This document shows positions 6,409 to 51,487 of a DNA stretch of 64,000 bases, piece after piece. Source of the DNA: Crambe crambe (lineage: Eukaryota > Porifera > Demospongiae > Poecilosclerida > Crambeidae); assembly GCA_963924555.1 (NCBI GenBank), contig OZ004598.1, positions 4,748,858 through 4,812,857 on the forward strand, read 5' to 3'. The notes under the pieces were generated by a model. The model saw nothing but the letters and a program-made list of their open reading frames with translations, was not told where the DNA came from and did no database searches. The translations under genes were made by a program, and so were the position numbers. Every line of letters starts with the position of its first letter. The stretch's first letter is position 1.

Positions 6409-9400
6409 TTTGGATAAGGGTCAGGGATATTGAATCTCTTGCACAAAATCCGGTGAGGATGCCAGTCTTGAATCTCTCGAGTAAGAATACCAAACATGTT
6501 TGCCTTGGCTGCCTGCACTGCATCTGATTCTGGTGTCTAGCACAAGAACAAGAAGTAGTCACAACTTAAATGATGGGATACTCAGAATCTAGGACATATT
6601 GACTACAGTGGCTTCTCAACCATTGACATCATATTTTTTTCCTACTTTTTATCCGCATGTACATACCAGAGGTACCTTATTGCATGTACATACCAGAGGT
6701 CTTTCTGGTTGTCTTCCTGCTTTCTTCTTCTCCCCTTCTTCTTCCTCCTTGGTGTGTTCTGTCCCTCCGCGAGTGAACCGTGAGGTCAGGGAACTGGCGA
6801 GGGGCTGAAAGACCTTGGCCACTCTGGAAAACTCCTCTTTCTCCTTCTGTCTCTCCCACTCTGTCATCCTGGAGTCGACACCCTGCAAGTCTGGAAAAAG
6901 ACAAACTTTAACTTTCTTAGTGGCAGCTAGTGGAGAGACAGGGGAATAAGCTAATCCCTGTTCTTTCATACATATTTTGGTATGTGTAGTATGAACATTT
7001 AATGTTATTATTGCAAGTATGTACTTACTCTTTCCAGCCAAATACACTTCATAGCGTGCTTGCTTGGCCACATCACTAGCAAATGGCTTCATCTCTATTA
7101 AAAAGAGAAAGCATTTTAATAGGAATGGAATCTTTCAGAAGCAGTGGGAACTTCTGTTTACCGGAGGCACTGAAGGACTGGATGTCTGGTCTCTGCTGTG
7201 CTGTAGAGGGTTCAGTATTCCTTTTCTCCGACCTTTTGATCTCTGAGGAGGAGGAGTCTTTCACCCCACCACCACCACTCTTCAACACCTCTGTGGTGTG
7301 CTTCAGTTTTGCCCGGTCAGATTGTGACAATAAATTGAACACAGAGTCTGTAAAAAAACAAAAAACAAAAAAAACAACAAAACAAAACGGAACAAAACAA
7401 AATAAATAATGGGGTAGGAGCTGGGGCATTGATGGCCTGAGGCTATACATGGATATCCTGTACCTGGCTTGTCTGAAAGGAGTTGAGATCTTTGTGTGGA
7501 GGAGAGAGGTTTTTGGCCAACACTGGTTGTAGATTGGGGAGTGGGAGGAACTCTGGACGCACCAAACTTGTGTACACACACAAAGTCACGAGGAACTATG
7601 GGAGGCGGGTGCTTCTACAAGGAAAAAAAAAAAGGTCCAATAAATTTATTTTCGTACACACACACACACATATATATTAGTTTACCTTAGTATTTGAAAT
7701 CTCCTTTGAGGATTTTTTAAAAGATGACATGCTCCAGCCACCTGTTTTAAATAAATATGCTCGACACAGTAGAAGTTCAAACCTCTGAATAATGGACACA
7801 CTTGGGACTCAGCATTTTGTCCTTTGTAGAGAGGTTGTCCTCTTTTGGAGGTTATTTTGTATAGAGTGTATATGCAAAGGTACTTTTAAATTGTCCTCTT
7901 TTGGATTTAATCCTTTCTACCAATGGTGAAACAGCATCATTTAGAACATTGCAGGCCGGTTCACTAGCTATGTAAATCTCCCAACCTGCTTGCAATGCCC
8001 CAGTCCACCCAAATTTTCTCTCCATGGTGATGTCCCCCTCAGCAGCCAGAGTGCTGTCGTACGACGTCAAGACTTCCTCTCCATAGACATTGTCTTCTTC
8101 CTCTTCATCGTCCTCCAAAGCACCAACACCAAATGCCTAATTTAACAGTAGCAAGTGAGGAAGTGTAGTCAGTCAGAGTTGAATTACAAAAATGAACTGC
8201 TACTTCAAATAGATTGAGAGGGGCCCCTATTGCTATAGTACAGAGTATAATGTATATATCTCCTTCCCCTTCCCCCTCCTTCTCCCCCCTCCTTTCCCCA
8301 CCCCTTCCCCCTCCCCCTCCTTTCCCCACCCCCTTCCCCCTCCTTTCCCCTCCCCTCCCCACCCCTCCTCCCCTTCCTATTATATTGGGGGGGGGAGGGG
8401 GGAGGGGGAGGAACCATACACTACCCACCTCTCCTGACATCCCATAAAGTGACTTTGTAGCTTTTCTTGATCCCAGGATCCCCTGGTCCTGAATCCCCTG
8501 ATACCCAATCCCGTGCAAATCGTCCTTCCCTTCCACCTCCCAGGGGGTCACATCTGAGGGGGCAAAGAGGAACCCCTCGGCTTCCTTGGGGTACATTAAA
8601 CCGCTCTCCTCATCTTGATCAGGTAAAGAACAACCATACACTTTCTTCTTGGAGTGTGCGCCACCTACATTTAGAACTTTAAGAACACAAGAATAATAAT
8701 TATATTATAGAGCTATTTACTACTACATACCTCCCGTGGACTCATATTTGGCTATCTTGGGCCCCACCCCTTGTCCCTCCTTCCAGCCCATGGCCTTCAA
8801 TAGTGTGACTCCAATGGTAGATTGAGCAGGAACCACCAAGTTTTGGAGGGCTGGGGTCCCGGGAATGACCGATCGAAGCAAATCTGCTTCCCTCTTCAGC
8901 CCCACCCCTGGGAACGTCTCATTCTTCTGACTGAATGACTCTTTAGCTGAGATTCCTCTAGGGGCAATGCCATAATCCCCCAAGTCCTAAAGTGCAATGA
9001 TAACTATAACCAGTATCAAGAGATTCCTCTAGGGGCAATGCCATATCCCCCCAAGTCCTAAAGTGCAATGATAACTAGAGAGAGTCCTCTAGGGGCAATG
9101 TCATAATCCCCAAGTCCTAAAGTGCAATGATAACTATAACCAGTATCAAGAGATTATTGCCATAGTGAATACAGTATTTGCCTGACAACTATGAAAGCTA
9201 TTTTAGACCTTATGCTAAGACTCTAAAGAACCGGCAGACAGATCATTGATGTTCCTTAATGTAAAGACAAACTATTTACCTAACAACAACAACAATGAAA
9301 GTTAATTTTGAAATTGGAGTAGATGGTTTTCTGATAACTAGAACAATTGCCCAACACAATATTGAAGTTATTATTAGTCCCTAACGACAATGAAAGTTGT

Positions 9401-11745
9401 GCCGAGTTGATGGTTGCTACAAACAACATGTATGGACATACACTGATATATTAATGTGTACCTTCAGCTTGGTTCTTTAAAACCTACAGCTAGCTAGAAA
9501 GAATACACTTTATCCTCTTGATTAATTGGAGCAGAGTCTTATGAAAAATGAATAAAGTTTTTATAACTGTAGTGGTTCTCTCTTCAGCTGTGATGTTAAC
9601 TACAGGACTGCAAGCTAATCAAGTCAGTGATAACAATAATGGAACAGGAAAAAGTGAGTGTGCAAACTTCAAGTTTAACGCAGGTGAATGCACCAACTAT
9701 AATGATACGACCAAAGTAAGATATCAGGGATATTGTCCCTACATTTTCGAACTCGATAGTCACATATTAGTTGATACTTATCAAGAGATGGCCTTTAATA
9801 TCAGCTCCTGCAGTCAACTGAATGAGGTGATGTGTGGTCAAATGAAGAGAGAAGGACTCTTGTGTAGTAAATGCAAGAAAGGCTATGGTCCAGACCTTTA
9901 TTCCAGGAAGTCTAATTGTGTACGATGCAGCAAAGAAACTCTGTGGATGTGGATCCTCTATCTTGCAGTGCTACTCACTCCCCTCACCATATTTTTTATT
10001 ATAGTCATCATTTTCAACGTGCGTGCTACCTCACCACCCTTCACTGCCTTCATATTGTACTGCCAAATCTTCACTAACATGTATAAAATGAATCCACACC
10101 CTCTCACTCGAATATATATTGATAACTACATCAGTCCCTATGTATACAAACTTGTCTTCACAGTGATTGACATTTGGAGTTTGGACTTCTTTAGACATCT
10201 TGTTCCTCCATTTTGTGTCAGCAGCAGTCTATCTAACACCCATGTGTTGATGCTCGAGCTACTTCCACCTTTTTATATTCTTGTCTTGATCGTCTTGACC
10301 TATGTATTGATCGAATTGCATGCTAGAAATGTGTGTGTGATAGTCCAACTATGGAGACCTTTCCATAAATGTGTAGCTAAGCTGAGGAGATCGTATGACC
10401 CCAAAGCTTCCATCTTTAATGCATTTGCAACATTCACACTTCTATCATTTTCAAACATCTTATTCATTGGCAGTCACTTCATTTTAACAGTAAGAGTATA
10501 TGCTGACTCTTCATCATCACATAATTGTACATATAAGTTATACTATGATCCTGGAGAGTCACCTGCTAAAGATACGCCTTATTTTGTCATTCTTCTTCTG
10601 ACAGGATTCACTCTGTTCCCAATTCTTCTTCTCTGCTTGTACCCTATCAGGTGCATGCGAAGAATCTGTTGCAAAGATCTCCGTTTCCTGCAATCCTTTG
10701 TGGATGCCTTCCAGGGCCACTACAAAGATAGCACCAATGGAACACGTGACTATCGGGCTATGGCAAGCTCACAGTTCATCATCAGGGTGCTACTTGCTTA
10801 TAATTATTTGGCACACACTTTAAGCACAAAAATGAAGTTCAATTTAGTCTCACTGACATGTATGTCAATTTGCTATCTGAGCTTTCGACCTTACAAGAAT
10901 AAATACATGAACATCATTGAAGGTCTTTTATACTGTCTTGCTGCAATACTAACTACCATGTTAGCAACAACCAGTATGAGACTACATGGTGTTGGTTTGA
11001 TGATGTATCTAATGTTACTGCTGATACTACTCCCATCAGTAGTTGTCATGTTCGTTTTCCTACAAAAATTGATAATCATGGTACTGCACTTGGAGTGTAC
11101 GAATAACTCCATATCATGCACATACTTGAAGACCCATTTATTCAAGATGAAGGAAGAGGCAAGTACTCCAACAAGACTACCACACAGATTAGAACATCCC
11201 AATGAGTATACACCACTTTTATAACACAATCAGTGTGCAATCAATTCATGAACATCGAATTATAAATATTCAGGCTTAAATTATCCATTCCACTTTTGTA
11301 ATGCTTTTCAACCATTAGAGTGTAATAATAACTCTTGTATAATAGTTTACATTCATTTCTGAAGAATTTTATCCTATTAAAAATATAATGTCAATCCAAC
11401 TACTTCAATAGTGTAATGAGACAACCTCTCTATGAAATAACTCTGCCATGTCCCAACAGTACCTCCCTAAAGAGACCACTTCCTTATAAAGACAAAAGCA
11501 AGTGTCACTGTATCATACATCTGTAGCTACTGGTATTGAAATGAACACTTGAACGTCACACACTCTCGTGGGGCCTATAGATTTCAGCTATAGGACTTTA
11601 AGCAAATCATATTAGGGGAACAGGATGAAATAAGATGCTGGTGAATGCACCAACTGGCATGCACATAGAGTATAGAGTATGTCTGGGAAGTTTTGTGGTA
11701 ATGAAATTTCATGGTTCTCATGGTTTTTGAATTTATATCCATATA

Positions 11746-11782
<37 letters not shown>

Positions 11783-14700
11783 TAATACTGTTATAACGAT
11801 AGGTATAGAGAGTGCCTCATGAAAACTATTTCAAATTGTTGAAACACCACATTATCAAAGCAAAGCCATATTGATAGAAAGTTTATTGTAGGCTAATGTA
11901 AAAGACATATTGGAAGATCCTTCCTTTCAGCATAGCATATAGAGATAATCAAAATACTGTATCAGGGCTTTAACTTTAAACTTTAAAAGAAATCCTCCAT
12001 GCCTATAGCTAGGTGTGTAGTATTGGAATTTTCAATTCTCTCTTCAACTGTTATGCTAACTACACCAGCTAATCAAGACAGTGATAACAACAATGGAACA
12101 GGAAAAAGTGAGTGCACAAACTTGAAGTTATATGCTGGTGAATGCACCAACTATAATGATACGACCAAAGTGAGATATGAGGGATATTGTCCTTACATTT
12201 TCAAATTCAAAAGTCATAAATTTATTGGGGAAGAAATAGTCATTAATGTCAACTCCTGCAGTCAACTGAATGAGGTAATGTGTGGTCAACTGAAGAGAGA
12301 AGGACTCTTGTGTAGTAAATGCAAGAAAGGCTATGGTCCAGACCTTTATTCCAGGAGGTCTAATTGTGTGCGATGCAAAAAAAAAACTCTGTGGATGTGG
12401 ATCCTTTATCTTGCAGTGCTACTCACTCCCCTCACCATATTTTTTATTATAGTCATCATTTTCACTGTGCGTGCTACCTCACCACCCTTCACTGCTTTCA
12501 TATTGTACTGCCAAATCTTCACTAACATGTATAAAATGAATCCACACCCTTTCAGTCGAATGTTTATTGATAACTTTATCAGCCCCTATGTATACAAACT
12601 TGTCTTCACAGTGATTGACATTTGGAGTTTGGACTTCTTTAGACATCTTGTTCCTCCATTTTGTGTCAGCAGCAGTCTATCTAACACCCATGTGTTGATT
12701 CTCGAGCTACTTCCACCTTTCTATATTCTTGTCTTGATTGTCTTGACCTATGTATTGATCGAATTGCATGCTAGAAATGTGTGTGTGATAGTCCAACTAT
12801 GGAGACATTTCCATAAATGTGTAGCTAAGCTGAGGAGATCGTATGACCCTAAAGCTTCCATCTTTAATGCATTTGCTACATTCACACTTCTATCATTTTC
12901 TAACATCTTATTTGTTGGCAGTCACTTAATTTGCACTATAAGAGTAGATGCTTACTCTTCATCATCATATAACCGCACTTATATGTTATACTATGATCCT
13001 GGAGAGCCACCTGCTAAAGACATGCCCTATTTTGTACCAGTCATCATCCTTCTGACAGGATTCACTCTGTTCCCGATTCTCCTTCTCTGCGTATGCCCTA
13101 TCAGATGTATACGAAAAATAATTTTCCTTCTATGTTGTAAAGATCTCCGTTTCCTACAGTCCTTTGTGGATGCCTTCCAGGGCCACTACAAAGATGGCAC
13201 CAATGGAACACGTGACTATCGGGCTATGGCGAGCTCACAGTTCATCATCAGGGTGATACTTGCTTATAATTATCTGATCCACCAAACAAATGCTGAAATA
13301 CAGATAAATCTAATCTCACTGATATGTATGTCAATTTGCTATCTGGTTTTTCAACCATACAAGAAGAAATACATGAACATCACTGAAGGTCTTCTATACT
13401 GTCTTGCTGCAATACTAACTACCATAGTAGCAATGTCCAGTATAAGACCGTGCACTGATCATTTCATAGTGACGTATCTAATGTTACTGCTGGTACTACT
13501 CCCATCAGTAGTTGTCATGTTTGCTTTCCTACGAAGATTGATAATCATGGTACTGCACTTGGAGTGTACGAATAACTCCATATTATGCACATACTTGAAG
13601 ACCCATTTATTCAAGATGAAGGAAGAGACAAGTACTCCAACAAGACTACCACACAGATTAGAACATCCCAATGAGTATACACCACTTTTATAACACTATC
13701 AGTGTGCAAGAATCAATTCCTTTATTTAGCTAGTCAACATTAAATTACAAATAGTGTGTTTCTTACTCTGCTTATTTCTCTCAGCTAACATAATAAAAAT
13801 TCAATTGTAATGTTATCATGTTAACTGAGAGAGTTTGAACTTGTGAATGATACGGAATTGGCACACAGAAATGAATGAAGATATATGAAAGGACACTACA
13901 TAAGGAGGCTAGATAGAGCAATAAAAATAAGCTGCAGGGATGAGGATCTGGTTCCAAGGAGTCTGAAGGTAAGACCTCCGGTAAGAACTAAGGAGGTTTT
14001 TAAGATTGCTGAGAGAGCTAGTACAGAGCTTTCCTCTCAGCTAGAGTTAGGCAATCATATAGGGAGAAGATCAGGCTTCAGTAAGGTACTCACCCCAGCA
14101 GAGGAAGAATTTTTAAAATTAGGCTTGAATTTTGTTCCGGCACCTAAAAAACTCCCTTTATTAATACAGTGGCAGCATGCAGTATGGGGCTAGGAGGCTG
14201 AATGAGGAACTCTGACACCTATACAGCATCCTGAATAAGGATCTAACAAAAATCCAAGAGACTGCATGAGTTAGTTAAGGAATTAAAAGCCTTAGAGAGG
14301 ACAGGGGAGATTCCAACAGAACTATACAATGAGATCAGGCCCGTATGGAGTATACCACCTAGATTATATGATCTTAAACCAAATATTCCCTTAAGATCTA
14401 TTGTTTCTTATATAGATTCTCCATGTTATAAGCTCTCTAGTAGATAACACAGTTAATTTCCCCTTTAGCAGGGAAGTTTGATTCTTATGTAAAAAATTCA
14501 GAGCATTTTATGAGCATGATTAAGGATTTAAGCTTAGGTCCAGATGAAACACTTGTTAGCTTTGATGTTTCTTCTCTCTTTACCAATGTTCCTGTATAGG
14601 TGAGACTGTGGAAGTTATGTTGGTGAAGATGAGACACTGGATGAGAGAACAACGTTATTACCTGATAAGATAGCAGAACTCTTAGAAACATGCCTTAACT

Positions 14701-17700
14701 CTATTTATTTTAGTTATAAGAATGTTAGTGAAGACATCAGAAGGGTTTGTAGAAAATTTGATATTAGGGTTGTTTTTAGATCAGGAAATTTGAGAGCTAG
14801 ACTTTCTAAGGTTAAGGATAAGTTGCCATCAGACCAAAATTCTAATGTTGCTTACAGGGTGCCTTGTAGCTGTGGGAAGTTTTACATTGGTGGAACAGTG
14901 AGAAGGCTGGAAACTAGACTGAAGAAGCATAAGGAAGCTTGCCTATGAGGCGAACAAGAGAAGTCTGCAGTTGCTGATCATGCTTGAATTAATTGTCATC
15001 CTATCTTATGGAAGGAAGCTTCAGTCATAGATCAAGCTAGGACTAGGAAGGAGCTGCTTCTAAAAAGAAGCGCTTCACATTAATTTAACTTCAAAAGCAT
15101 TTTAATAGGGATGTAGGACTAGAACTTCAAGGTTGCTGGGTAAAGAGGAAATAATGTTTGTGCCTTCTGGTAATGGCATGCATGCATGTGCATTGTCTAG
15201 ATAACAAGCGTAGCTATATAAGAACGTTTGTGTGCATTTCTTGTATCACCCTGATGAAGGTTATTCTAGTTGAAATGTCGGTGGTTTATTTAATAAAGCT
15301 AATTTTTATGAGGACTAATTTAGAGTGTTTCTTATTCAGAAGACCATTAGAAATTTTTAGGCTTGAAAATTATCCATTCCACTTTTGTAATGCCATTAGA
15401 GTGTAACAATAACTTCTATATAATAGCTCTTATTGTTTATGAATGCAAAAAATTTCTTCGAAATAAAAATGTGAAGTAGGGATGACCACAAATTTAGCAC
15501 ATAATAATTATTATAGCTATTATAACTGCAGCTTCATTATGAAAACCAAGTACTGCAGCATCGAAGCAGTATGGCCCAAAAATCTAGCTGGAATATGTAT
15601 TATAACTGCATGCAAGAGAGTGAACATAGTGAAGTGACCCTTACCCATCATCAAGTACAAGATACTATTCCTACTTCACTCCCATGAGCCAAGGGAGTGA
15701 AGTAGGAATAGTATCTCGCATTGCAATCTCTGTTGTTTTTGTTCATTGCTGTCTTTTAGTTAGTTCTCTGCATGGGCTTGATTTGTTGGCAAAGACGGCC
15801 AAGAAGCATCAGCACTAGCTACACTGCGTAGTGACTGCGAGACTGAGCCTGAGCCTGTTTATCTTTTTGTGTTGGCTTAGCTAGCTAGTAGCTAGAGAGC
15901 TAGTGCTAATAATGCACGTGCTCGATACGCATCACCGCGCATCATTGTGCGCGCTATTAATACGTACCATCATAGATAGTCGCCTTCGGCACTGTGCCTC
16001 GGCACTCTGGTGCCGAGGCAAAAACTAAAATATGTAACCAGCATAATTGCCTAACAATAATGAAAGTCATGGGAGTTGATGGTTGCTACATTATTACAAC
16101 TGCAGGGTGTGTGATAAGCACACAAACGATATGATACATATGCATTGCTGTGTATGTATGGAAACACATCAATATAGGTTCTTTAAAACATACAGCTAGC
16201 TAGAAAGAATACACTTTATCCTCTTGATTAATTGGAGTGGAGTCTTATCAGAAGAATCCCTACATTTTCAAATTCAATAGCCATATATTTGTTGATGTAT
16301 ATAAAAACATGGCCTTTAATATCAACTCCTGTAGTCAAATGAATGAAGTGATGTGTGGTCAATTGAAGACTTGTGTAGTGAATGCAAGAAAGGCTATGGT
16401 CCAGACTTTTATTCCAAGAAGTCAAATGTGTGCGATGCAGTAAAAAACTCTGTGGATGTGAATCCTTTATCTTGCAGTGATTACTCATATTGGAAGATCC
16501 TTTATAGTTACTTCCTTTCAATTTTTTCATAGATAATCAACACCTTTAAACTTTAAAGAAATCCTCTATATGCCTATAGCTAGCTAGCTGATTAATTCTG
16601 GAACAGGTGTAAGATGAATAACATCTTTATATTTGTAGCATTGGAATTTTCACTTCTCTCTGTTATGCAAATTACACCAGCTAATCAAGACAGTGATAAC
16701 AACAATGGAATAGGAAAAAGTGAGTGCACGAACTTGAAGTTATATGCTGGTGAATGCACCAACTATATAATGAAGTGAGATATCAGGGATATTGTCCCAA
16801 CATTATTATTATACTGTCTTGCTGCAATACTAAGTGTAACCAGACCACCTCTCTATAAAACAACTCTGCCATGTCCCAACAGTACCTCCCTAAAGAGACC
16901 ACCTCCCTATCAAGATAACTTGTTCTTGGAAAGCAACACTGTAAAAATGAAAGTGTGTACTGCACACTAAATTGTCCCAATACACACACTGTTTTGTTTT
17001 TGGTGTGTGTATTGGGACAATTTAGTGTGCAGTACACACTTTCATTTTTACAGTGAATGTATCATACATTTATGAACACTTGAATGTCACACATTCTTGT
17101 GGGGTCTATAGGTTTCAGCTAAAATCATGTCACTGAAACAGGACAAAATAAGTTGCTGGTGAATGCACCAACAGGCACATAGAGTATAGAGTATGCCTGT
17201 ATATTGTGGATATTTGGTATAAAATTTCATGGATTTCATGGTTTTTGAATTTATATGCATATATAGTTCACATGCAAAAAAAAATTCTGCTTTTAGCCAT
17301 AGAAGGTATGGAGAGTACCTCATGAAAACTATTGACAATTGTCAGAACAGCACATAAAATATTGATAATAAGGATTAGATCATCAAAGCAAAGCAATACT
17401 GATAGAAAGTTTATTGTAGGCTTGGTAGCTTCCTTTCAGTTTTGCATTACATATAGAAATAATCAAAATATTGTATCAGGCTAAGCATATAGCTAGCTAG
17501 CTGGAAGTTTAAGATGAATAACATCATTATAATTGTAGTGTTGGAATTTTCACTTCTCTCTTCAGCTGTTATGCTAACTACACAGGCTAATCGAGACAGT
17601 GATAACAACAATGGAACAGGAAAAAGTGAGTGTGCAAACTTGAAGTTATATGCTGGTGAATGCACCAACTATAATGATACGACAAAAGTGAGATATCAGG

Positions 17701-23776: not shown

Positions 23777-23949
23777 GCTTTACTCCATGTCCACAGCTTT
23801 AAAGTTGAACGTTGAGCTGGCAGCTAGCTTTTTGATTTGCAGGGATTCCCAAATAATGCACACTTTTTAAAATTCTAAATAAAGATCATCACGTCTACCA
23901 AGTCGACTGTTTCTGGCTCTTCCTAATTCATTAGAGGCTTGAATTAACC
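23777..23949. promoter_or_regulatory. Shared divergent promoter of GPATCH1 and PHKB
   Basis: Only 173 bp separate the GPATCH1 start codon (minus, 23776) from the PHKB start codon (plus, 23950). Both 5' UTRs and both promoters must fit here, so it is very probably a bidirectional promoter. No clear TATA box is visible. Confidence 0.8.
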
Positions 23950-41900: not shown

Positions 41901-44900
41901 GTGTCGCGAAAAAAGAAGCAAAACGCATAAATTAAAATTGGTGCGTGTCATGTGATCAAGACAATGACCCGGCGCACGCGCACATGCTTTATCTATTACA
42001 TAAAACTGCAAGGCACATTGTCTATAGCTAAAACCAGTACCTTCATGTGAATATGCTTCTAAATGAAATGCCCCAAACAGTATGAGCCACACAACTTTAT
42101 AATGTCGCTTGAACTAGTAATCAAACATAAAAACATGTAACAATATAGAAATGATAATTGCACACTGTATCAGAGAGTGCGGTAGCACTCTCTATGTAGG
42201 GATGACGCGGACGGCCGTGCGCGCCGCCTATAGACTAATACAAAAGTGAAATTCTAGTTCCCCCACTTAGACCTAACAAAAGCTACTGTGAATGATTATC
42301 CAGCCTTGTATCCTTCCCTTACTTACTTGCTTACTTGCAAAAGCTACTGTGAATGATTATCCAGCCTTGTATCCAGCCTTGTATCTTTCCCTTACTTGTA
42401 ACTATTAAAAGTGTTATAAAAGTGGTGTATACTCATTGGGATGTTCTAATCTGTGTGGTAGTCTTGTTGGAGTACTTGTCTCTTCCTTCATCTTGAACAA
42501 ATGGGTCTTCAAGTATGTGCATAATATGGAGTTATTTGTACACTCCAAGTGCAGTACCATGATTATCACTCTTCGTAGGAAAACAAACATGACAACTACT
42601 GATGGGAGTAGTACCAGCAGTAACGCTAGATACATCATTATGATATGTTCAGTGTATGGTTTTGTATTACTGGATCCTGCTAATATATTAATAAGTATAG
42701 CAGCAAGACAGTATAAAAGACCTTCAGTGATGTTCATATATTTCTTCTTGTAAGGTCGAAAGCTCAGATAGCAAATTGACATACATGTCAGTGGGATTGA
42801 ACTTATCTGCATTCCTGTGTTTAATGACAAATAATTGTAAGCAAGTAGCACCCTGATTAAGAACTGTGAGCTTGCCATAGCCCGATAGTCACGTGTTCCA
42901 TTGGTGCCATCTTTGTAGTGGCCCTGGAAGGCATCCACAAAGGACTGCAGAAGACGGAGATCTTTGCAACATATTATTCTGATAGGGTACAAGCAGAGAA
43001 GGAGAATCGGGAACAGAGTGAATCCTGTCAGAAGGATGAGGACTGGTACAAAATAGGGCATGTCTTTAGCAGGTGGTTCTCCAGGATCATAGATGTGTGG
43101 TTATGAGATGATGAAGAGTAAGCTTATACTGAAAATGAAGTGACTGCCAATGAATAAGATGTTAGAAAATGATATAAGTGTGAATGTTGCTAATGCATTA
43201 AAGATGGAAGCTTTGGGGTCATACGATCTCCTCAGCTTAGCTACACATTTATGGAAAGGTCTCCATAGTTGGACTATCACACACACATTTCTAGCATGCA
43301 ATTCTATCAATACATAGGTCAAGACTATCAAGATAAAAATATAGAAAGGTGGAATTAACTCAAGCATCAACACATGGGTGTTAGATAGACTGCTGCTGAC
43401 ACAAAATGGAGGAATAAGATGTCTAAAGAAGTCCAAACTCCAAATGTCAATCACTGTGAAGACAAGTTTGTATACATAGGGACTGATATAGTTATAGACA
43501 AAGATTTCAGTATGAGGGTAAGGGCTCATTTCATACATGTTAGTAAAGATTTGGCAGTACAATATGAAGGCAGTGAAGGGTGGTGAGGTAGCACACACAT
43601 TGAAAATGATGACTATAAAAAAAAATATGGTGAGGGGAGTGAGTAGCACTGCAAGATAGAGGATCCACATCCACAGAGTTTTTTTACTGCATCGCACACG
43701 ATTAGACCTCCTGGAATAAAGGTCTGGACCATAGCCTTTCTTGCATTTACTACACAAGAGTCCTTCTCTCTTCAGTTGACCACACATCACTTCATTCAGT
43801 TGACTGCAGGAGTTGACATTAATGGCTATCATTTTACCATCAACAAATATGTGACTATCGAGTTTGAAGATGTAGGGACAATATCCCTGATATCTCACTT
43901 TGGTCGTATCATTATAGTTGGTGCATTCACCAAAATTTATCTGTAAGTTTGCACACTCACTTTCTCCTGTTCCATTGTTGTTATCACTGACTTGATTAGC
44001 TTGGAGTCCTATAGTTAGCATTACAGCTGAAGAAATTCCCAGCACTGAAATTATAAAGATTATATTCATCATAAGATCGTTCTATACAACCTAAAAGATT
44101 TCTTTTTATCTAGTGACCAGGTAATCTAACAGAGTTATGAAATTCATACATTGGCAGATCCAAGGTGATACTGAAACTAATCAGACTCAGACTAATGACT
44201 GAATAAACTTTACCATATTGAACTTAAAATGTGTAAAGGTCCACATAATGAATCTATACATTGCTGAACCAGTCAGACTCAACTAATAAAAGGACTAAAT
44301 AGAGCTTTACCATATCAAACTTAGAGCTAATTAAAATGTGTAAAGTCACATTAGTAAACATCTATAGCCGAGAAATCAAGACAATCAATCAATAGTTCAA
44401 TCATTTGCAAATATTGACTGCTACTGAAACCAAATAAAGTCCAGACATGACCCAGTGTTAATACCTATATACTCCTATAGAATAGGTGTGTTCTTAACAC
44501 CTCCAGCTGATCAACTTTACAGATAATAACACTTTTAGCAACTATGTGTGTGCTGCCCACTTCTAATTAATTTGATCTCATGACTCTATACTTATTTCAT
44601 AACTATTATTATTTCATGTGGATACTTGTTAACCACTACTATAATACTTCATTTATAAGTAACTGCATGGCTGTATACATATTCCCAACTCCTTTTTGTT
44701 GTCCTACCTCACAGCTCCAGCAGCTTGGAACTGTTCATTATAATCTTACAGGTTTATTATTTAGTATTCTAAACCAATTTGTAGTCACATTGTCGATCTT
44801 GCTGATCATTGGCTGTAAGGTGCCTTTTGCCTTAATCACTCCACCCTTTATAAATCACTCCACCTTTTATAAATCACTCCATCCTTTAATAAATGTTCTC

Positions 44901-47332
44901 GATGATTAATAATCTAGTGAGAAAAGTGTTTGTTTCCCATGCCCAGGCCCTGAATCTTTCTAATCATGAGGTTGATGACATTTAGTGATTATACGATGAT
45001 CATCTTTTTCTAATGATTTCCTAACTAAACACACAACCTAATGTGGTTCAAACTAATTATACGAAAATGATTATTGCACACTGTATGATTCAAAGTGTAG
45101 TGGTGTATACTCATTGGGGTGTTCTAATCTGTGTGGTAGTCTTGTTGGAGTACTTGCCTCTTCCTTCATCTTGAACAAATGAGTCTTCAAGTATGTGCAT
45201 AATATGGAGTTATTCGTACACTCCAAGCGCAGTACCATGATTATCAATCTTTGTAGGAAAACAAATATGACAACTACTGATGGGAGTAGTATCAGCAGCA
45301 AGAATAGATACATCATTACGATATGAATGGTGTATGGTGTCATACTGCATGTTGCTAATATGGTAGTTAGTATTGCAGCGAGACTGTATAAAAGACCTTC
45401 AGTGATGTTCATGTATTTCTTCTTATATGGTCGAAAGCTCAGATAGCAAATTGACATGCATGTCAGTGAGATTAAATTTATCTGCATTTTTGTGTCTAAA
45501 CGTGACAAAAAATTATAAGCAAGTATCACCCTGATGATGAACTGTGAGCTTGCCATAGCCCGATAGTCACGTGTTCCATTGGTGCCATCTTTGTAGTGGC
45601 CCTGGAAGGCATCCACAAAGGACTGCAGGAAACGGAGATCTTTGCAACATATTAGGAAAAATATTCTTCGCACACACCTGATAGGGTACAAGCAGAGAAG
45701 AAGAATTGGGAACAGAGTGAATCCTGTCAGAAGAATAGTGACTGGTACAAAATAGGGCATGTCTTTAGCAGGTGGTTCTCCAGGATCATAGTATAACTTA
45801 TTTGTGTGATTATCTGATGATGAAGGGATAACATATACACTTACTGTGCAAATGAAGCGACTGCCAACGAATAGGATGTTTGAGAATGATAGAAGTGTGA
45901 ATGTAGCAAATGTATTAATAACAGATGCTTTAGGATCATATGATCTCCTCAGCTTAGCTACACATTTATGGAAAGGTCTCCATAGTTGGACTATCACACA
46001 CACATTTCTAGCATGCAATTCGATCAATACATAGGTCAAGATGAGCAAGACAAGAATATAGGAAGGTGGAAGTAGTTCGAGCATCAACACATGGGTGTTA
46101 GATAGACTGCTGCTGACACAAAATGGAAGAACAAGATGTCTAAAGAAGTCCAAACTCCAAATGTCAATCACTGTGAAGACAAGTTTGTATGCATAGGGGC
46201 TGATGTAGTTATCAATAAACATTCGAGTGAAAGGGTGTGGATTCATTTTATACATGTTAGTGAAGATTTGGCAGTACAATATGAAGGCAGTGAAGGGTGG
46301 TGAGGTAGCACGCACATTGAAAATGATGACTATAAGAAAAAATATGGTGAGAGGAGTGAGTAGCACTGCAAGATAGAGGATCCACATCCACAGAGTTTTT
46401 TTGCTGCATCGCACACAATTAGACTTTCTTGAATAAAGGTCTGGACCATAACCTTTCTTGCATTTACTGCACAAGAGTCCTTCTCTCTTCAATTGACCAC
46501 AAATCATTTCGTTCACTTCACTGCAGGAGCTGATATTAAAGGTGATCGTTTTATCGCTATCAATGAATGTAAGTTTGAAAATGTAGGGACAATATCCCTC
46601 ATATCTCACTTTGGTCGTATCATTATAGTTGGTGCATTTACCAACTTTTAAATGCAAATCTGCACACTCACTTTTTCCTGTTCCATTGTTGTTATCACTG
46701 ACTTGATTAGCTTGCAGTCCTGTAGTTAGCATCACAGCTGAAGAAACGCCCAGCACCAAAATTATAAACTTTTTATTCATTATGAGACTGTCTTCTATAT
46801 GACATAAAAGAATTGAGTCGTTTAGTCGTTTCTTTTCAATTGTGCAGTTAAACTGACCGAGTTGAAGGAATTGATTTAATTTTATGGCAGTAGGAGTAAT
46901 AAAAAACTAATTAAAAACACAACAGAACTAAGTCAACTGTAATATATGCCACACTTGGACCAATTAAAATGTGTGAAGTCACATTAGCTAGCTACAATCA
47001 TGCTTGTGTATCAGCCACAATATCATAGCCACATGTTTTCCCCTCATTTGTAATAATATTGAACATACATTTCGTGAAATGAAAAAAGATGTAGGGATGG
47101 AGTTTGTCCATGTAGCTATGCCAGTTATGTAACTTGCTAGCTGATAACTATCCCATGATAATGCATGCAGTCATGTCTTCTCAACTCCCACACCTGCAGA
47201 TCCCAATTTTTTATATCAACCCTCTATGGGTGACCATACGTTGTAACCATACAAGTCGTTCAACAAATGTGCACTCTGTGTGCTGTTTTACTACAGTCAC
47301 TGGTTTCTGATTCACACAACTGATAAACATGG

Positions 47333-47397
<65 letters not shown>

Positions 47398-50300
47398 CAG
47401 GTTGGCAAATGATGTGCTATTTTGAATGATTATATAGATGAAAGTGAATACAGTACAGTGGGACCTGTTTTATTGCATTCAACCCCCAGCCTCGTACCCA
47501 GGTTCTAAAATTATGAGGTGGGAAATAGAACCTGGTACCCACTGTTTGTGCATGCGCCAAAAATTTCACGCGCCTATCACACATTTTAACGGTGTGTGAT
47601 GTCACAACATGTAACTACGTGTATGAGCATGCACTATAAGATACCAAGAAAGCTATTATTGCAATGAAATTCTCTGGAGAAGAGAAGACAAGACTGGCAC
47701 TTTTAAAACTATTCATAGTGGCAAGAATTTTTTTATCCATAAGCCGCTCTCCCTTAAATCCAGAGGAGATGATCACAGCCTCAGCTCTGTACTATTCCCC
47801 AACGAATAAACGAATGGAGAGAATTGCTTGCTGCTGCTCCTTGTTCAGTACTAGATGGGGTTGTCCCAGCATAAAACAAATAAAGAAGAACTGGTGAACT
47901 AGAGCTAGTCTGCTGCAGTGCTGATTCAGCAGTATTGCGTCATGCGTCACGGAAGATTACTGAGGGATTACAATTTCCCCCAATCATAGGGGAAAATTGG
48001 CACATGCGCAAACAGTGGGTACCAGGCTCTTTTATCCGCCTCCACAAATTTTAGAGCCTGGGGACGAGGCTAATAGAACCCACATGATTGGTTTTAGGAA
48101 CCAGCTTGGGTTAGTTTATTCTCACTCATAGCTTCATGCATGCATTTATCATGTGTCCACATGTCTTCACTATGTGTTCACTATGTCTCCTCATAAACAG
48201 TGATAGCTGACATAGGAGCACTTTCCCACTGAAAGTTTCCACAATGTCCTTATTATATTGGACCCTAAAAATTGCAAACTACAATGGAACCTGTCACCCT
48301 TGGGCCAGCAAGAAATGACTATATATAAGGAAGTGGCCTGCTAACTCAGGTTGAAGTGTACTCTTGGGACTTGGACCCATGGATGTTATAGAGAGATGAC
48401 CTGCTTATACAGAGGTCTCTTCCTTCACCTTGAATAAATGGGTCTTCAAGTATGTGCATAATATGGAGTTATTCGTACACTCCAAGTGCAGTACCATGAT
48501 TATCAATCTTCGTAGGAAAACAAACATGACAACTACTGATGGGCAGCAAGACTGTATAAAAGACCTTCAGTGATGTTCATGTATTTCTTCTTGTAAGGTC
48601 GAAAGCTCAGATAGCAAATTGACATACATGTCAGTGAGATTAAATCGGAGATGATTTTCGTGTCTAGACTCTTTGTCAAATTATATCTGCTAGCAAGTAG
48701 CACCCTGATGATGAACTGTGAGCTTGCCATAGCCCGATAGTCACATGTTCCATTGGTACCATCTTTGTAGTGGCCCTGGAAGGCATCCACAAAGGACTGC
48801 AGGAAATGGAGATCTTTGCAACATATTAGGAAAAATATTCTTCGCACACACCTGATATAGGGTACAAGCAGAGAAGGAGAATTGGGAACAGAGTGAATCC
48901 TGTCAGAAGGATTATGACTGGTACAAAATAGGGCATATCTTTAGCAGGTGGTTCTCCAGGATCATAGTATAACATAGATATGAAATTATATGATGATGAA
49001 TATATTTTTATAGTGCAAATGAAGTGACTGCCAACGAATAAGATGTTAGAAAATGATAGAAGTGTGAATGTAGCAAATGCATTAAAGATGGAAGCTTTAG
49101 GGTCATACGATCTCCTCAGCTTAGCTACACATTTATGGAAAGGTCTCCATAGTTGGACTATCACACACACATTTCTAGCATGCAATTCGATCAATACATA
49201 GGTCAAGACAATCAAGACAAGAATATAGAAAGGTGGAAGTAGCTCGAGCATCAACACATGGGTGTTAGATAGACTGCTGCTGACACAAAATGGAGGAACA
49301 AGATGTCTAAAGAAGTCTAAACTCCAAATGTCAATCACTGTGAAGACAAGTTTATATGCACAAGGATTGATATAGTTATCAATGTACATTCGAGTGAAAG
49401 GGTAAGGGTTCATTTTATACATGATAGTGAAGATTATGCAGTACAATACGAAGGCAGTGAAGGGTGGTGAGGTAGCACGCACATTGAAAATGATGACAAT
49501 AAGAAAAAATATGGTGAGGGGAGTGAGTAGTACTGCAAGATAGAGGATCCACATCCACAGAGTTTTTTCACTGCATCGTACACAATTAGACTTCCTTGAA
49601 TAAAGGTCTGGACCATATTCTTTCTTGCATTTACTACACAAGAGTCCTTCTCTCTTCAGTTGACCACACATCACTTCATTCAGTTGACTGCAGGAGCTGA
49701 CATTAAAGGCTATATTACCTGTGTGACTAGTTATCATATGATCAAATTTGAAGATGTAGGGACAATATCCCTCATATCTCACTTTTGTCATCTCATTATA
49801 GTTGGTGCATTCACCATAATTTATCTTTAAGTTTGCACACTCACTTTCTCCTGTTCCATTGTGGTTATCACTGACTTGATTAGCTTGCAGTCCTGTAGTA
49901 AGCATCACAGCTGAAGAAATTCCCAGCACTATAATGATAAACATGACGAGACTGTGATTCATACAAATTGAGCAAGAAGTGACTAGTTAAACTGACAGAA
50001 TTGGGGAAATTTTATATAGCTTGAGAAATAATCATATGATATCAAATAAGTTCCTATCAAGCACTAGCATATCCTATTAATATTTTTTTTTCATTAGTAA
50101 TAAGAAAGGTAAACTGATACAGTGAAACTCTACTAGATATTTTTCCTGTGCCCACTTCTAATTATTTCGATAGCTAATAATCTACTCAAAAATAACTGGT
50201 ATACAAAAAATTTTTACCTGCATGTGAAAATAGAACCCTTAATGATATCTGTGGTTATAACTATGCATTCACAATGCAGCATCTAGTCCAGAGTTCTGGA

Positions 50301-51487
50301 GAGAAAGCTGGATGTTACATGGCAGGCATGTTGCCTAAGGTAGCAGCTATTTTCTGGCAGGGTCTAAAAGTCGATGGCAAAGTGATAGCTATAGCATATA
50401 CATTAGCTGAACACATCCAGGCACATGGTGAATACATGCAGACACATGGTGAGCACATGTAGAAATGAATAAGAATAAACTATATCCTCATGGATTAACC
50501 AATAAAGCATTTTTGTGCCCCATACCCAGGCCCTCTGAACCTTCAGAAACTGATCATGGGGCTGAATGCAGGCAGTAATCAAGACATTTTTTTTTTCTAA
50601 TAATCTTCTAAAGAAACACACAACTTGCAATCTAAACTAGTTAAAATAAAGTAACAACATTACATGCAGAAATGATTAATGCACTCTGTATGATTAAAAG
50701 TGTATTCTGATTGGGGTGTTCTAATCTGTGTGGTAGTCTTGTTGGAGTGATAAAAGACCTTCTATGTATTTCTTCTTGTAAGGTCGAGAAATCAGATAGC
50801 AAATTGACACATGTCAGTGATATTAATGTAAAAATAACTATATATTCACATTGCAGCTACTTGTGGTGGTCTCCACAGTTCTGGAGAGAAACCCAGAGTT
50901 GAACTTCAAGGAAACTTTAGACTTGGATGAGGTAGATATGCACACAGTGGAACCTCCAAATAATGGACATGCACACTTCAATGGACCCATGCAGCCTTTT
51001 ATAGAGAGGTTGTCCTCTTTTGAAGATTATTTCGTGTAGAGTGTCTTATACAATGGATTGTCCTTTGTTGAGAGGTTAGTCCTCTTTCAGCGTGTCCTTT
51101 ATCGGAGGTTCCACTGTGGCTAGCTATGGCTGTACTAAAGGCATCTCTTGCTAACCAGTGATTGACTTGATCCCTATAATTATGATATCAAGATCTTGAA
51201 GAGTGCGCAAGAGATATACAAAGAAGACGAACTAGCAAAGCTGAAAGAAAGTGCCAGTATGTCACCAGAAGACACTATCCTGATTGAGGTGAGGTCCAAT
51301 TTCCTGTAGTTCCAATATTATAAATGCATGACATAATCCTGATAACATTATATAGACCAGATGGTTTTATTCATTGAATCCTGATGGTGCTTCAGGCAGC
51401 ACTTCTTACATGGCCCGTGCAGTGGTCAATAAAATGCTGAAAGGAGGTTTGCAGTACAACCCCAGCAAGTCCTGTACCATCAGTTAA
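23950..51487 (+). CDS. PHKB: Phosphorylase b kinase regulatory subunit beta
   Basis: Thirty phase-consistent exons give 1096 aa (human about 1093): 23950-23998, 24221-24350, 24431-24530, 24736-24843, 25037-25096, 25304-25440, 25518-25782, 25935-26042, 26338-26395, 26450-26524, 26743-26919, 27348-27498, 27694-27790, 27853-28038, 28105-28187, 28250-28423, 28663-28840, 28966-29010, 29136-29220, 29289-29437, 29648-29776, 29847-29926, 30031-30085, 30214-30284, 30343-30410, 30516-30577, 30754-30861, 50857-50931, 51193-51288, 51356-51487. Landmarks are [46 protein letters not shown] and [19 protein letters not shown] with [12 protein letters not shown] favours beta over alpha. The protein is a regulatory subunit of the calcium-activated kinase that switches on glycogen phosphorylase. 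It ends in CTIS, a CaaX prenylation box in the same place as human CLIS. Intron 27 (30862-50856, 19,995 bp) hosts antisense array B. Exons 27 and 28 encode residues that are adjacent in vertebrate PHKB. Confidence 0.96.
24932..24943 (+). other. PHKB: Candidate 12-nt microexon of PHKB
   Basis: Between exons 4 and 5, AAACTGCTACAG is flanked by TTCACAG and GTAAGT. It would insert KLLQ in frame right after the GHLQ motif. It is absent from vertebrate PHKB as I remember it. It may be an alternative microexon or chance. Confidence 0.35.
26085..26321. repeat. Polypyrimidine tract in a PHKB intron
   Basis: About 235 bases of CTCCCTCCCTT-type sequence lie just upstream of the acceptor of exon 9. Open frames on both strands here are low-complexity artefacts. 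Confidence 0.9.
27090..27297. repeat. Dispersed repeat, copy 1 (inverted relative in array B)
   Basis: The segment containing GTTCTTCTGGTTCCGTCCTT, GTGACATCATCAGCTAACTG and CAATGCTTTGCATTTCCCTA reappears in reverse complement at about 38480-38600. It is a shared interspersed element of unknown type, inside a PHKB intron. Confidence 0.6.
29090..29130 (+). repeat. (TTC)n tract serving as the polypyrimidine tract of PHKB exon 19
   Basis: About 12 TTC units end six bases before the acceptor CTGCCAG|GTCCCT. The microsatellite has in effect become the splice-site pyrimidine tract. Confidence 0.85.
30640..30703. repeat. Inverted repeat in PHKB intron 26
   Basis: TCTTCCCCAGGTGATTCCAC plus GT is mirrored 20 nt later by ACGTGGAATCGCCTGGGGAA plus GA, with one mismatch over 22 bp. 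The left arm contains an acceptor-like TTCCCCAG|GT that is not used. Confidence 0.8.
30862..31896. other. Start of PHKB giant intron 27 before array B
   Basis: No exon. It includes a minisatellite at 31427-31727 (separate entry). The rest is AT-rich with nothing recognisable. Confidence 0.5.
31427..31727. repeat. AT-rich minisatellite of ATAATGCATTC(T)CCT units
   Basis: About 20 alternating units of roughly 13 and 15 nt (ATAATGCATTCCT and ATAATGCATTCTCCT), some with an added AGCTA, form a 300-bp tract. Each unit carries the palindrome ATGCAT. It borders the 3' end of array B copy 1. Confidence 0.92.
31897..33618 (-). CDS. Array B copy 1: receptor-like membrane protein (573 aa)
   Basis: Intact single exon from ATG 33618. 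It has the family plan: signal-like N-terminus, nine-cysteine ectodomain, about nine spans and the tail EYTPLL. The N-terminus is slightly longer ([20 protein letters not shown]). It is among the most divergent in the outer patches: ectodomain [19 protein letters not shown], loops SPHSDYK and [12 protein letters not shown]. One normally invariant inner segment reads DYQAIASS instead of DYRAMASS. It is nested in PHKB intron 27 on the opposite strand and nearest to the 5' side of that intron. Confidence 0.85.
   Translation of the reverse strand: MEHQSLDNIFIIIVLELLLLFSPAISTTRLQVNEVSDNNGTGKSECVYLSFAIGKCTNYNETTKVRYEGYCPYIFKFDRYISDESGKEMTLYISSCSQLNEVMCGQLKREGLLCSKCKKGYGPDLYSRRSNCVRCKKKTLWMWILYLAVLLTPLTIFFLIVIIFNVRATSPPFTAFILYCQIFTNMYKMNPHPLTRMYIDNYISPYVYKLVFTVIDIWSLDFFRHLVPPFCVSSSLSNTHVLMLELLPPFYILVLIVLTYVLINLHARNVRVIVQLWRPFHKCVAKLRRSYDPKASIFNAFTTFTLLSFSNILFVGSHIIWTVKVHAFSSSSHNFTSMLYYDPGEPPAKDMPYFIPVTILLTGFILFPILLLCFYPIRCIRRIFFLICCKDLRFLQSFVDAFQGHYKDGTNGTRDYQAIASSQFIIRVIFVFNYLSPHSDYKMQFNLISLTCMSICYLSFRPYKKSYMNIIEGLLYGLAVIPTTIFMTYNMKTNVYHILEKYLLLILVLLPSVVVMFVFLRRLIIMVLHLECTNNSILCTYLKTHLFKMKEEASTPTRLPHRLEHPNEYTPLL
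33619..34384. other. Spacer between array B copies 1 and 2
   Basis: No gene. It contains the second F1 foldback element (33785-33901) and otherwise AT-rich sequence. Confidence 0.55.
33785..33901. repeat. Foldback element, family F1, copy 2
   Basis: The same 117-119 bp palindrome as at 16937-17055 (CACTGTAAAAATGAAAATGT ... ACACTTTCATTTTTCAGTG). The left arm has several changes while the right arm stays almost identical to copy 1. Confidence 0.88.
34385..36095 (-). pseudogene. Array B copy 2: receptor-like gene with two frameshifts
   Basis: Full-length homology from ATG 36095 ([18 protein letters not shown]) to the normal EYTPLL stop at 34385, but split into three frames. One shift lies in the variable ectodomain patch near 35850. 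The other, near 35295, is an extra CA in the short dinucleotide run that encodes NVCVIV, a slippage-type change. The ectodomain cysteine in SCSQ is also replaced (SYSQ). Because both shifts are single small indels, a recent loss or a sequencing error is possible. Confidence 0.8.
36096..36628. other. Spacer between array B copies 2 and 3
   Basis: AT-rich, no gene seen. It includes the 5' flank of copy 2 and the 3' flank of copy 3. Confidence 0.45.
36629..38241 (-). pseudogene. Array B copy 3: receptor-like gene, start lost and internally deleted
   Basis: Three defects. The start ATG has become ATA (38241-38239; the copy reads I-N-R-I-L-V-L-G where others read M-N-K/N). An in-frame deletion removes about 36 residues from MNP through the HLVP segment, joining MNPTLSLKS to PPFCVSS. 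One A is missing near 36796 and shifts the frame just before the C-terminal Cys block, although the tail and stop are still readable in another frame at 36629-36780. It is therefore a pseudogene even though a 480-codon open stretch survives. Confidence 0.85.
38242..38858. other. Spacer between array B copies 3 and 4, with dispersed repeat
   Basis: At 38480-38600 lies the reverse complement of the 27090-27297 repeat (GGAATGCAAAGCATTGTGG ... GCTGATGATGTCACCGTA). No gene. Confidence 0.55.
38859..40541 (-). CDS. Array B copy 4: receptor-like membrane protein (560 aa)
   Basis: Intact single exon. I chose ATG 40541 ([18 protein letters not shown]), matching the start of the other copies. An in-frame ATG at 40592 would add 17 residues with no counterpart in paralogues. 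The family plan is complete with the EYTPLL tail. Peculiarities are an extra Phe in ASIFFNAF, a four-residue loss that shortens [11 protein letters not shown] to YYDPAKD, and [12 protein letters not shown] in place of the usual [12 protein letters not shown]. It is nested antisense in PHKB intron 27. Confidence 0.84.
   Translation of the reverse strand: MDNIFITVVSLLCSAVMSTTGLQANQVSHDNNGTGKSECANLKLYAGECTNYNDTTKVRYEGYCPYIFKFDSHIFVNRYKMIAFNISSCNQLNEVMCGQLKREGLLCSKCKKGYGPDLYSRKSNCVRCSKKTLWMWILYLAVLLTPLTIFFLIVIIFNVRATSPPFTAFVLYCQIFTNLYKMNPHPLTRMFIDNYISPYVYKLVFTVIDIWSLDFFRHLVPPFCVSSSLSNTQVLMLELLPPFYILVLIVLTYVLIELHARNVCVIVQLWRPFHKCVAKLRRSYDPKASIFFNAFATFTLLSFSNILFIGSHFICSIGVNAYSSSSHNHTSMLYYDPAKDMPYFVPVIILLTGFTLFPILLLCLYPIKCVRRIFFLISCEDLRFLRSFVDAFQGHYKDGTNGTRDYRAMASSQFIIRVLLTYNNLVRHLDYKLQFYLISLTCMSICYLSIQPYKKKYMNITEGLLYCLAAILTQMFIIFNMKQHFLFIYLLLLLVLLPSVVVKFVFLRRLIIMVLHLECTNNSILCTYLKTHLFKMKEEASTPTRLPHRLEHPNEYTPLL
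40660..40944. repeat. Nested foldbacks: F2 element inserted in an F1 element
   Basis: The outer ends (CACTGTAAAAACAGAAGTGT ... TTCACACTTTCAGT) are diverged F1 foldback arms. Inside, 40721-40899 is a second palindromic element bounded by TAAAGTCTATTTGGATTCAC and GGTGAATGCAAATAGACTTT. The F2 family is also present at 57309-57463. This is a clear insertion of one small element into another. Confidence 0.8.
41271..41422. repeat. Long inverted repeat, arms about 52 bp
   Basis: The left arm 41271-41323 and right arm 41372-41422 match through GAAAAGCTTGTTGGGTTTGA and the neighbouring CTACT(C/A)TC region, with a few mismatches toward the outer end. The 48-bp centre is AT-rich. The right arm overlaps the end of the small ORF at 41377-41586. 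Confidence 0.85.
41377..41586 (-). CDS. Small hypothetical ORF of 69 aa with a promoter-like upstream
   Basis: It opens at ATG 41586 ([20 protein letters not shown]) and has less biased composition than nearby spacers. Upstream on the minus strand are NRF1-type palindromes (GCGCATGCGCA at 41682-41692, GCATGCGCA at 41713). A further 39-codon, GC-rich ORF lies at 41700-41819 (start [15 protein letters not shown]). No family recognised. Its last third lies in the inverted repeat, so it may be a captured exon fragment of a gene located elsewhere. Confidence 0.3.
   Translation of the reverse strand: MAARIVHVPADAPVIAIYKSGILPEHEGYKYFVPARTQSEDQRRRRVKHQLAVDQPSFILATLRKACWV
41823..42413. other. Spacer upstream of array B copy 5
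   Basis: No gene. It contains a GC-rich patch at 42178-42232 and a direct repeat: AAAAGCTACTGTGAATGATT occurs at about 42278 and 42338, each followed by ATCCAGCCTTGTAT. Confidence 0.5.
42414..44072 (-). pseudogene. Array B copy 5: receptor-like gene broken in the outer loop
   Basis: The N-terminal part (44072-43101, start [19 protein letters not shown]) and C-terminal part (43061-42414, normal EYTPLL tail) are in different frames. The break is near 43090-43115, in the loop that usually reads [11 protein letters not shown], where bases are missing compared with copies 4 and 6. A Cys in the CVRC motif is also changed (NRVRC). A smaller in-frame loss removes part of the RCMRRIFFL segment. It may still produce a truncated 323-aa protein. 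Confidence 0.82.
44073..45070. other. Spacer between array B copies 5 and 6
   Basis: AT-rich. Short direct repeats are CCATATTGAACTTA/CCATATCAAACTTA and AAATGTGTAAAG near 44200-44345, and ATAAATCACTCCA three times near 44848-44882. No coding signal. Confidence 0.5.
45071..46780 (-). CDS. Array B copy 6: receptor-like membrane protein with altered tail (569 aa)
   Basis: Intact single exon from ATG 46780 ([18 protein letters not shown]). Ectodomain, spans and inner loops follow the family. Unlike all other readable copies, the C-terminus does not stop at EYTPLL: a change at the former stop gives [13 protein letters not shown]. The YTPL (YxxPhi) motif is kept but the ExxxLL dileucine is lost. 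The outer patches are distinctive: a short ectodomain patch ([16 protein letters not shown]), [11 protein letters not shown] in place of [11 protein letters not shown], and [12 protein letters not shown] in the outer loop. It is nested antisense in PHKB intron 27. Confidence 0.84.
   Translation of the reverse strand: MNKKFIILVLGVSSAVMLTTGLQANQVSDNNNGTGKSECADLHLKVGKCTNYNDTTKVRYEGYCPYIFKLTFIDSDKTITFNISSCSEVNEMICGQLKREGLLCSKCKKGYGPDLYSRKSNCVRCSKKTLWMWILYLAVLLTPLTIFFLIVIIFNVRATSPPFTAFILYCQIFTNMYKMNPHPFTRMFIDNYISPYAYKLVFTVIDIWSLDFFRHLVLPFCVSSSLSNTHVLMLELLPPSYILVLLILTYVLIELHARNVCVIVQLWRPFHKCVAKLRRSYDPKASVINTFATFTLLSFSNILFVGSRFICTVSVYVIPSSSDNHTNKLYYDPGEPPAKDMPYFVPVTILLTGFTLFPILLLCLYPIRCVRRIFFLICCKDLRFLQSFVDAFQGHYKDGTNGTRDYRAMASSQFIIRVILAYNFLSRLDTKMQINLISLTCMSICYLSFRPYKKKYMNITEGLLYSLAAILTTILATCSMTPYTIHIVMMYLFLLLILLPSVVVIFVFLQRLIIMVLRLECTNNSILCTYLKTHLFKMKEEASTPTRLPHRLEHPNEYTPLHFESYSVQ
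46781..47487. other. Spacer upstream of array B copy 6
   Basis: No gene. A (TA)n(GATA)n microsatellite occupies about 47337-47397. Confidence 0.5.
47337..47397. repeat. (TA)n(GATA)n microsatellite
   Basis: About 13 TA units pass into 8 GATA units. It is a simple repeat in the array B spacer. Confidence 0.95.
47488..48071. mobile_element. 584-bp element with long terminal inverted repeats
   Basis: The left end AGCCTCGTACCCAGGTTCTA with GAACCTGGTACCCACTGTTT is mirrored at the right end by AGCCTCGTCCCCAGGCTCTA with GAGCCTGGTACCCACTGTTT on the other strand. Each inverted arm is about 70 bp. This is the layout of a non-autonomous DNA transposon. No clear target duplication is visible. It carries a 77-codon open frame (plus, 47664-47897; start [17 protein letters not shown]), probably a captured or decayed fragment. 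Confidence 0.8.
48413..49962 (-). pseudogene. Array B copy 7: disabled receptor-like gene
   Basis: The N-terminal 378 codons (from ATG 49962, [17 protein letters not shown]) are open. Then an insertion (CTGATATAGGG for CTGATAGGG, about 48853) shifts the frame in the inner loop. Near 48546 a deletion removes most of the last two spans, joining the eighth-span sequence to the ATGGGAG region. Homology stops near 48413, so the sorting tail is lost. The ectodomain has [10 protein letters not shown] in place of [10 protein letters not shown]. Confidence 0.85.
49963..50704. other. Spacer between array B copies 7 and 8
   Basis: No gene. It resembles the 3' flanks of other units (GAATGCAGGCAGTAAT near 50561; AAACACACAACTTGCA near 50613). 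A small repeated CACATGGTGA motif lies near 50423-50456. Confidence 0.5.
50705..50816 (-). pseudogene. Array B copy 8: short 3' fragment
   Basis: It contains tail-region sequence (GGGGTGTTCTAATCTGTGTG and GTAGTCTTGTTGGAGT) joined directly to the segment around the seventh span (TTTCTTCTTGTAAGGTCGAG). Everything between and upstream is lost. It ends 40 bp before PHKB exon 28 and marks the edge of the array. Confidence 0.8.
50948..51118. repeat. Dispersed repeat, 'gaggttccactg' family, copy 2
   Basis: The most complete copy, running from CAGTGGAACCTCCAAATAAT to TATCGGAGGTTCCACTGTGG with internal TAGAGAGGTTGTCCTCTTTT. It lies in PHKB intron 28. Confidence 0.7.

Follow-up and report, generated by a model that had tools for sequence, protein, structure and literature searches.

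Arrays of a membrane-protein family nested antisense in long introns of the divergent GPATCH1 and PHKB genes of the sponge Crambe crambe

The divergent host genes and their long introns

The window analysed, a stretch of 64,000 nucleotides of the Crambe crambe genome (contig C21, 4748858-4812857), contains two divergently oriented host genes, GPATCH1 on the minus strand (6372..23776; partial 7-exon model) and PHKB on the plus strand (23950..51487; 29-exon model of 1135 aa with C-terminal CTIS, supported by its protein match). Their start codons, at 23776 and 23950, are separated by 173 bp (23777..23949), the same distance reported in the first-pass annotation of this DNA. Each gene harbors one long GT-AG intron in phase 0, delimited by its splice sites and by the joined protein. 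Intron 2 of GPATCH1 (8987..23157, minus strand) spans 14,171 bp and the long intron of PHKB (30862..50856, plus strand) spans 19,995 bp, in agreement with the 14.2 and 20.0 kb annotated previously. The latter, earlier numbered 27, is intron 26 of the 29-exon model, which may miss one exon. The remaining introns of the partial GPATCH1 model measure 66, 157, 292 and 319 bp, and a 1,095-bp gap in it probably hides unmodelled exons; the other 27 PHKB introns measure 54-428 bp.

In GPATCH1, exon 2 ends in ..GATGCTGAG/GTAAAT and exon 3 starts at ..CACTTTAG/GACTTGGGG, in phase 0. The protein joined over this intron aligns continuously with solved GPATCH1 (9s2f_GP, E 7.9e-45), and the join completes the Pfam domain DUF1604, which the intron interrupts (profile positions 5-84 of 84). 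Both DUF1604 matches in the genome fall at this locus, with none elsewhere, and so no second, array-free GPATCH1 was seen. In PHKB, the donor side reads CAAGTCATTGTGGAG/GTACGT and the downstream exon starts at ..CATTGCAG/CTACTTGTG, also in phase 0. Here the junction-spanning piece aligns unbroken to solved PHKB (8jfk_B, E 1.4e-16), the intron falls inside Pfam KPBB_C and the join is unbroken over profile positions 123-186 of 238. The complete 1135-aa model, a single open frame, matches 8jfk_B with E 7.8e-250 and the alpha subunit less well (8.2e-170); both structure chains are presumably human. As far as can be judged from sequence, both long introns are real introns of real genes.

Additional features were observed around the host exons. 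In GPATCH1, the acceptor of intron 2 together with the first part of exon 3 occurs in three tandem repeats (8949-9155), with acceptor-like sites at 8987, 9058 and 9117 that share an identical final 20 bases ahead of the splice point, and choice of either upstream site would lead to a stop after 13 codons. Since GPATCH1 is described in one account as a splicing-fidelity factor (PMC11958768), the tripled acceptor is a possible candidate for a self-regulating poison splice site. Read-through at the PHKB donor (30862-30900) adds 11 codons before a stop, so that a message ending inside the long intron would be without the C-terminal CTIS. Also, an NLR-like gene (986-5178, plus strand; NACHT E 4.2e-12 and leucine-rich repeats), preceded by an ORF with a weak CARD match (E 0.086), lies convergent with GPATCH1.

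The nested copies and their relatives elsewhere in the genome

The window was searched with one family member, copy A3, as query (tblastn E 1e-3, blastn E 1e-5). GPATCH1 intron 2 contains four near-complete copies and one fragment, all on the plus strand: A1 (9545..11224, open frame), A2 (11987..13693, open frame), a 5' fragment (16257..16804), A3 itself (17493..19214, open frame with its ATG at 17514) and A4 (20709..22364, broken frame). The PHKB intron contains seven near-complete copies and one fragment, all on the minus strand: B1 (31897..33630, open frame), B2 (34385..36107, broken), B3 (36629..38277, broken), B4 (38859..40601, open), B5 (42414..44081, one in-frame TAA), B6 (45071..46906, open with an altered C-terminal end), B7 (48411..49986, broken) and a 3' fragment (50670..50826) located 31 bp from the PHKB acceptor. 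Thus, uninterrupted frames are found in six of the 11 near-complete copies (A1, A2, A3, B1, B4 and B6).

Every copy lies wholly within one intron of its host gene, as nested genes do, and the outermost copies or fragments approach the exon borders to within 31 to 1,036 bp. All 11 near-complete single-exon copies and both fragments (13/13) are antisense to their hosts, and at the above thresholds no further coding match to A3 occurs in the window outside both introns, which bears out the earlier statement that the family is confined here to two introns in antisense orientation. Two extra stretches of A3 flanking DNA (52 and 29 bp, both plus) fall within GPATCH1 intron 2. The mirror symmetry claimed for the layout holds for orientation and fails for position, the array being near the 5' end in GPATCH1 and, in PHKB, three exons away from the 3' end. 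Among the A copies, plus-strand ORFs at 13879-14948 may belong to a Penelope-type retroelement, which they resemble; their GIY-YIG match is weak (E 0.018).

An alignment of 29 members reveals a cysteine-rich N-terminal part followed by several hydrophobic segments (seven, signal peptide counted in), and most, though not all, rows end in a NEYTPL-like tail, presumably a sorting-signal-like motif. Pfam searches with two copies recovered DUF7630 only, below threshold, and comparison of an AlphaFold model (pLDDT 77) with solved structures gave no clear relative. The products are therefore best described as a large family of predicted polytopic, cysteine-rich membrane proteins, and the term receptor used in the first annotation, which follows from their appearance only, is a guess.

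A genome-wide search with A3 (143 Mb, 119 contigs) recovered at least 80 family matches, 15 in the window and at least 65 elsewhere; these are lower bounds, as 76 of 868 candidates were scored, and they count matching stretches, so that one broken copy may count two or three times. The outside matches sit on C3, C5, C8, C9, C10, C11, C12, C19 and C20, with 49 of the at least 65 in five larger arrays (C3 9.09-9.20 Mb; C20 3.21-3.24 and 3.68-3.71 Mb; C9 5.94-5.99 and 8.19-8.23 Mb). Inspection of 6.7-9 kb per flank, mostly by eye over ORFs of at least 45 aa or at least 52 aa, recognised no gene present on both sides of any of the five. Pfam analysis of eight flank ORFs, covering eight of the ten flanks, returned thiolase, a weak GATase, MCU, AhpC-TSA, FAM76, a weak SH3, TPR and patatin; the left flank at C9 8.18 Mb and the right flank at C9 5.99 Mb were judged by eye only. 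For the gene to the left of the C9 5.94-Mb array, the 3' end was not found. The remaining 16 of the at least 65 outside matches form smaller groups and single members on C5, C8, C10, C11, C12 and C19, at C20 3.37 and 5.45 Mb, at C3 4.72 Mb and at C9 4.95 and 5.12 Mb. Intronic residence as a rule or strategy of the family hence finds no support at the five larger arrays within the flanks inspected. Beside the C9 5.94-Mb array, there is a very long TC/GA simple repeat (flank positions 1000-1450), the translation of which consists of RE or SL repeats in several of the frames.

History of the arrays and their orientation

The 11 near-complete copies are ∼85-92% identical to each other in DNA (difference ∼8-15%). 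In a tree that included six outgroup copies they form one clade (100/100), within which the pairing of A2 with A3 alone is starred (100/98), the rest being mostly unresolved. A and B copies were not recovered as separate clades, and such a separation is not clearly rejected (AU p 0.050 and 0.053). As members of one clade, all 11 represent one or two events rather than eleven. Also, upstream stretches are common to subgroups of copies (e.g. A3 and A4, 85% over 416 bp), as expected if whole units were duplicated.

Ratios of dN/dS, computed on the DNA alignment in the codon frame of A3 with gapped or stop codons dropped, average 0.45 in the 15 pairs formed by open copies (range 0.37-0.59), 0.52 in the 10 broken pairs and 0.48 in the 30 open-broken pairs. 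Given these near-equal values, the ratio alone cannot tell working from dead copies; they do point to selection over most of the shared history, that of the copies now broken included. In a neutral simulation of substitutions only, with indels ignored, the chance that an open copy would have acquired no stop along its own end branch was 0.001-0.039 per copy. As the six copies were picked for being open, this constitutes support, not proof, that the open frames exceed what neutral drift would leave and that they have been under past selection. Single-exon frames kept open beyond neutral expectation suggest, in turn, that the copies are independent transcription units and may be expressed as such.

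Synonymous divergence is uneven along the gene, ranging from 0.095 to 0.44, which fits local exchange of sequence between copies and could also be explained by constraints of another kind. Nine copies (36 pairs; B3 and B7 excluded as lacking pieces) were subjected to a permutation test, in which p refers to the best of all pairs, and three significant runs of identity emerged, namely A4-B4 (p 0.03), A1-B1 (p 0.034) and B1-B6 (p 0.001). The first and second of these, both weak signals, join members of opposite arrays and suggest that sequence may have been exchanged between them.

With regard to orientation, about 63% of the nested genes in human are reported to be antisense to their hosts (PMC3192792), so that two arrays in this orientation call for no particular explanation. 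Tandem duplicates inherit their strand, and the 13 of 13 antisense copies and fragments are consequently not 13 independent trials; for two arrays placed with random strands, both would be antisense in 1 case out of 4. The usual reason offered for antisense nesting, interference of same-strand genes with the host message, is plausible. However, counts of the poly(A)-signal hexamers AATAAA and ATTAAA, compared with shuffles, run opposite to what avoidance of such signals would predict. Inside the copies, the host strand is enriched in them, with 22 in the GPATCH1 array and 30 in the PHKB array (8.2 and 14.7 in shuffles), and the strand that encodes the copies is depleted, with 2 and 3 (7.7 and 12.2). 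Spacer DNA in the GPATCH1 intron has even numbers on its two strands (host strand 13 vs. 10.0 in shuffles, other strand 12 vs. 13.1), and in the PHKB intron it has 26 on the host strand (15.2) and 9 on the other (12.3). The hosts are thus not spared these hexamers by antisense orientation and must ignore many of them anyway, which argues against the orientation argument in its simplest form. Poly(A)-signal avoidance was accordingly rejected as the cause of the orientation.

The locus as a whole is, in our judgement, probably best accounted for by a single founder and tandem growth. One family member would have entered the GPATCH1-PHKB locus once. Tandem duplication would then have raised its copy number, and one or more inverted transfers would have carried the family past the promoter region that the hosts share, until arrays filled one intron in each divergent host, always antisense to it. 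Some of the single-exon copies would have been kept by purifying selection and others would have decayed, with some perhaps exchanging sequence, and the hosts would splice the arrays out in vivo. The antisense orientation is probably a residue of selection against same-strand insertions that spliced into or ended the host message, and inheritance of strand by tandem duplicates would help to keep it. Any mutual effect of hosts and arrays would then be ordinary transcriptional interference.

An alternative is that the hosts control the copies, either because host pre-mRNA pairs with copy transcripts or because host polymerase collides with copy transcription, so that copies would be expressed solely where host expression is low, or small RNAs would act against the whole family. 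The geometry agrees with the first-pass annotation in that any full-length host pre-mRNA would carry the antisense of the copies in its own intron, and since A and B copies are ∼86-90% identical in DNA, each host could match the other array too. However, six frames have remained open for longer than expected under neutral drift, which makes a lasting silencing of the whole set unlikely, an argument that covers the past and not the present, and the five other arrays have no recognised host of this kind within the flanks inspected. We consider antisense control as a whole unlikely. An elaboration, by which the divergent pair would serve as a paired antisense source, its transcripts restraining or selecting copies, the point where the polymerase stops setting the expressed copy, and exchange keeping the arrays matched, appears to us decidedly improbable.

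Introns could also guard an expanding family against deletion, given that loss of host exons would presumably be costly. A deletion internal to the intron may nevertheless leave the exons intact, and broken copies make up five of the 11 intronic copies against 13 or 14 of the 49 matches in the five arrays elsewhere (Fisher p 0.28-0.30), which shows no difference and does not lean in the direction that shelter predicts; the latter count was made by hand from the match list plus two broken copies read directly, the doubtful 14th having a single stop that is perhaps outside its frame. The sheltering role put forward in the first annotation is hence very unlikely. Misassembly as the reason why the arrays appear within the hosts is extremely unlikely, since the window is free of N and the ∼8-15% divergence between copies makes a collapsed or mis-joined repeat improbable, canonical and phase-matched splice sites bound both introns at both ends, and DUF1604 has no other location in the genome.

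Nested antisense arrays in other genomes

The layout is a local one, and a striking example of nested genes, a known arrangement. With a diversifying gene family housed in the introns of two neighbouring housekeeping genes, the locus is a compact natural system. Once RNA data are added, it could be used to test directly how transcription is shared between antisense nested arrays and their hosts, the family's other arrays in this genome serving as an internal control.

As a class, nested genes are abundant in sponges, one count listing 2,432 in Aphrocallistes vastus, 3,358 in Amphimedon queenslandica and 5,032 in Sycon ciliatum (PMC10282587), and head-to-head genes are reported as very common in Amphimedon (PMC4773876); the relevant portions of these two accounts do not describe paralog arrays. 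The literature searched, with most subscription journals outside its scope, yielded no description of a mirrored pair of arrays. The earlier assertion that no description of this arrangement was known therefore applies to the mirrored pair, whereas antisense-nested clusters as such are in print for MED12L and CENPP.

Among systems reported elsewhere, LRRTM1-3 are nested in CTNNA2, CTNNA1 and CTNNA3, respectively (PMC3933685). As described there, and as in the sponge locus, a membrane-protein family occupies large introns of two or more hosts and is antisense to them; by contrast, each alpha-catenin host has one copy, and the family spread by joint duplication of host and nested gene and not across a divergent promoter. 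A second parallel is provided by the KRTAP5 genes, the products of which are not known to be membrane proteins. MOB2 hosts KRTAP5-1 to KRTAP5-6 (PMC4394429), which resembles the present case in that a paralog array of one family sits inside a host gene. There is one host instead of two, and KRTAP5-1, being opposite to an antisense gene that is itself opposite to MOB2 in that description, is not antisense to its host.

A third parallel is offered by MED12L and CENPP, whose nested genes are paralogs. In human, MED12L hosts P2RY12 and P2RY13, and CENPP hosts ECM2, ASPN, OMD and OGN, all on the opposite strand (PMC3933685). According to that account, several cell-surface or extracellular genes share one host and lie opposite to it, and in the sponge likewise several related genes occur per host on the strand opposite to it. 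Each human cluster consists of few old copies in one host, whereas the 11 copies of the sponge locus resemble one another more closely and are spread over two hosts that are adjacent and divergent. Antisense-nested gene clusters are thus known, and what sets this locus apart is an unusually large paralog array split between two divergent hosts.
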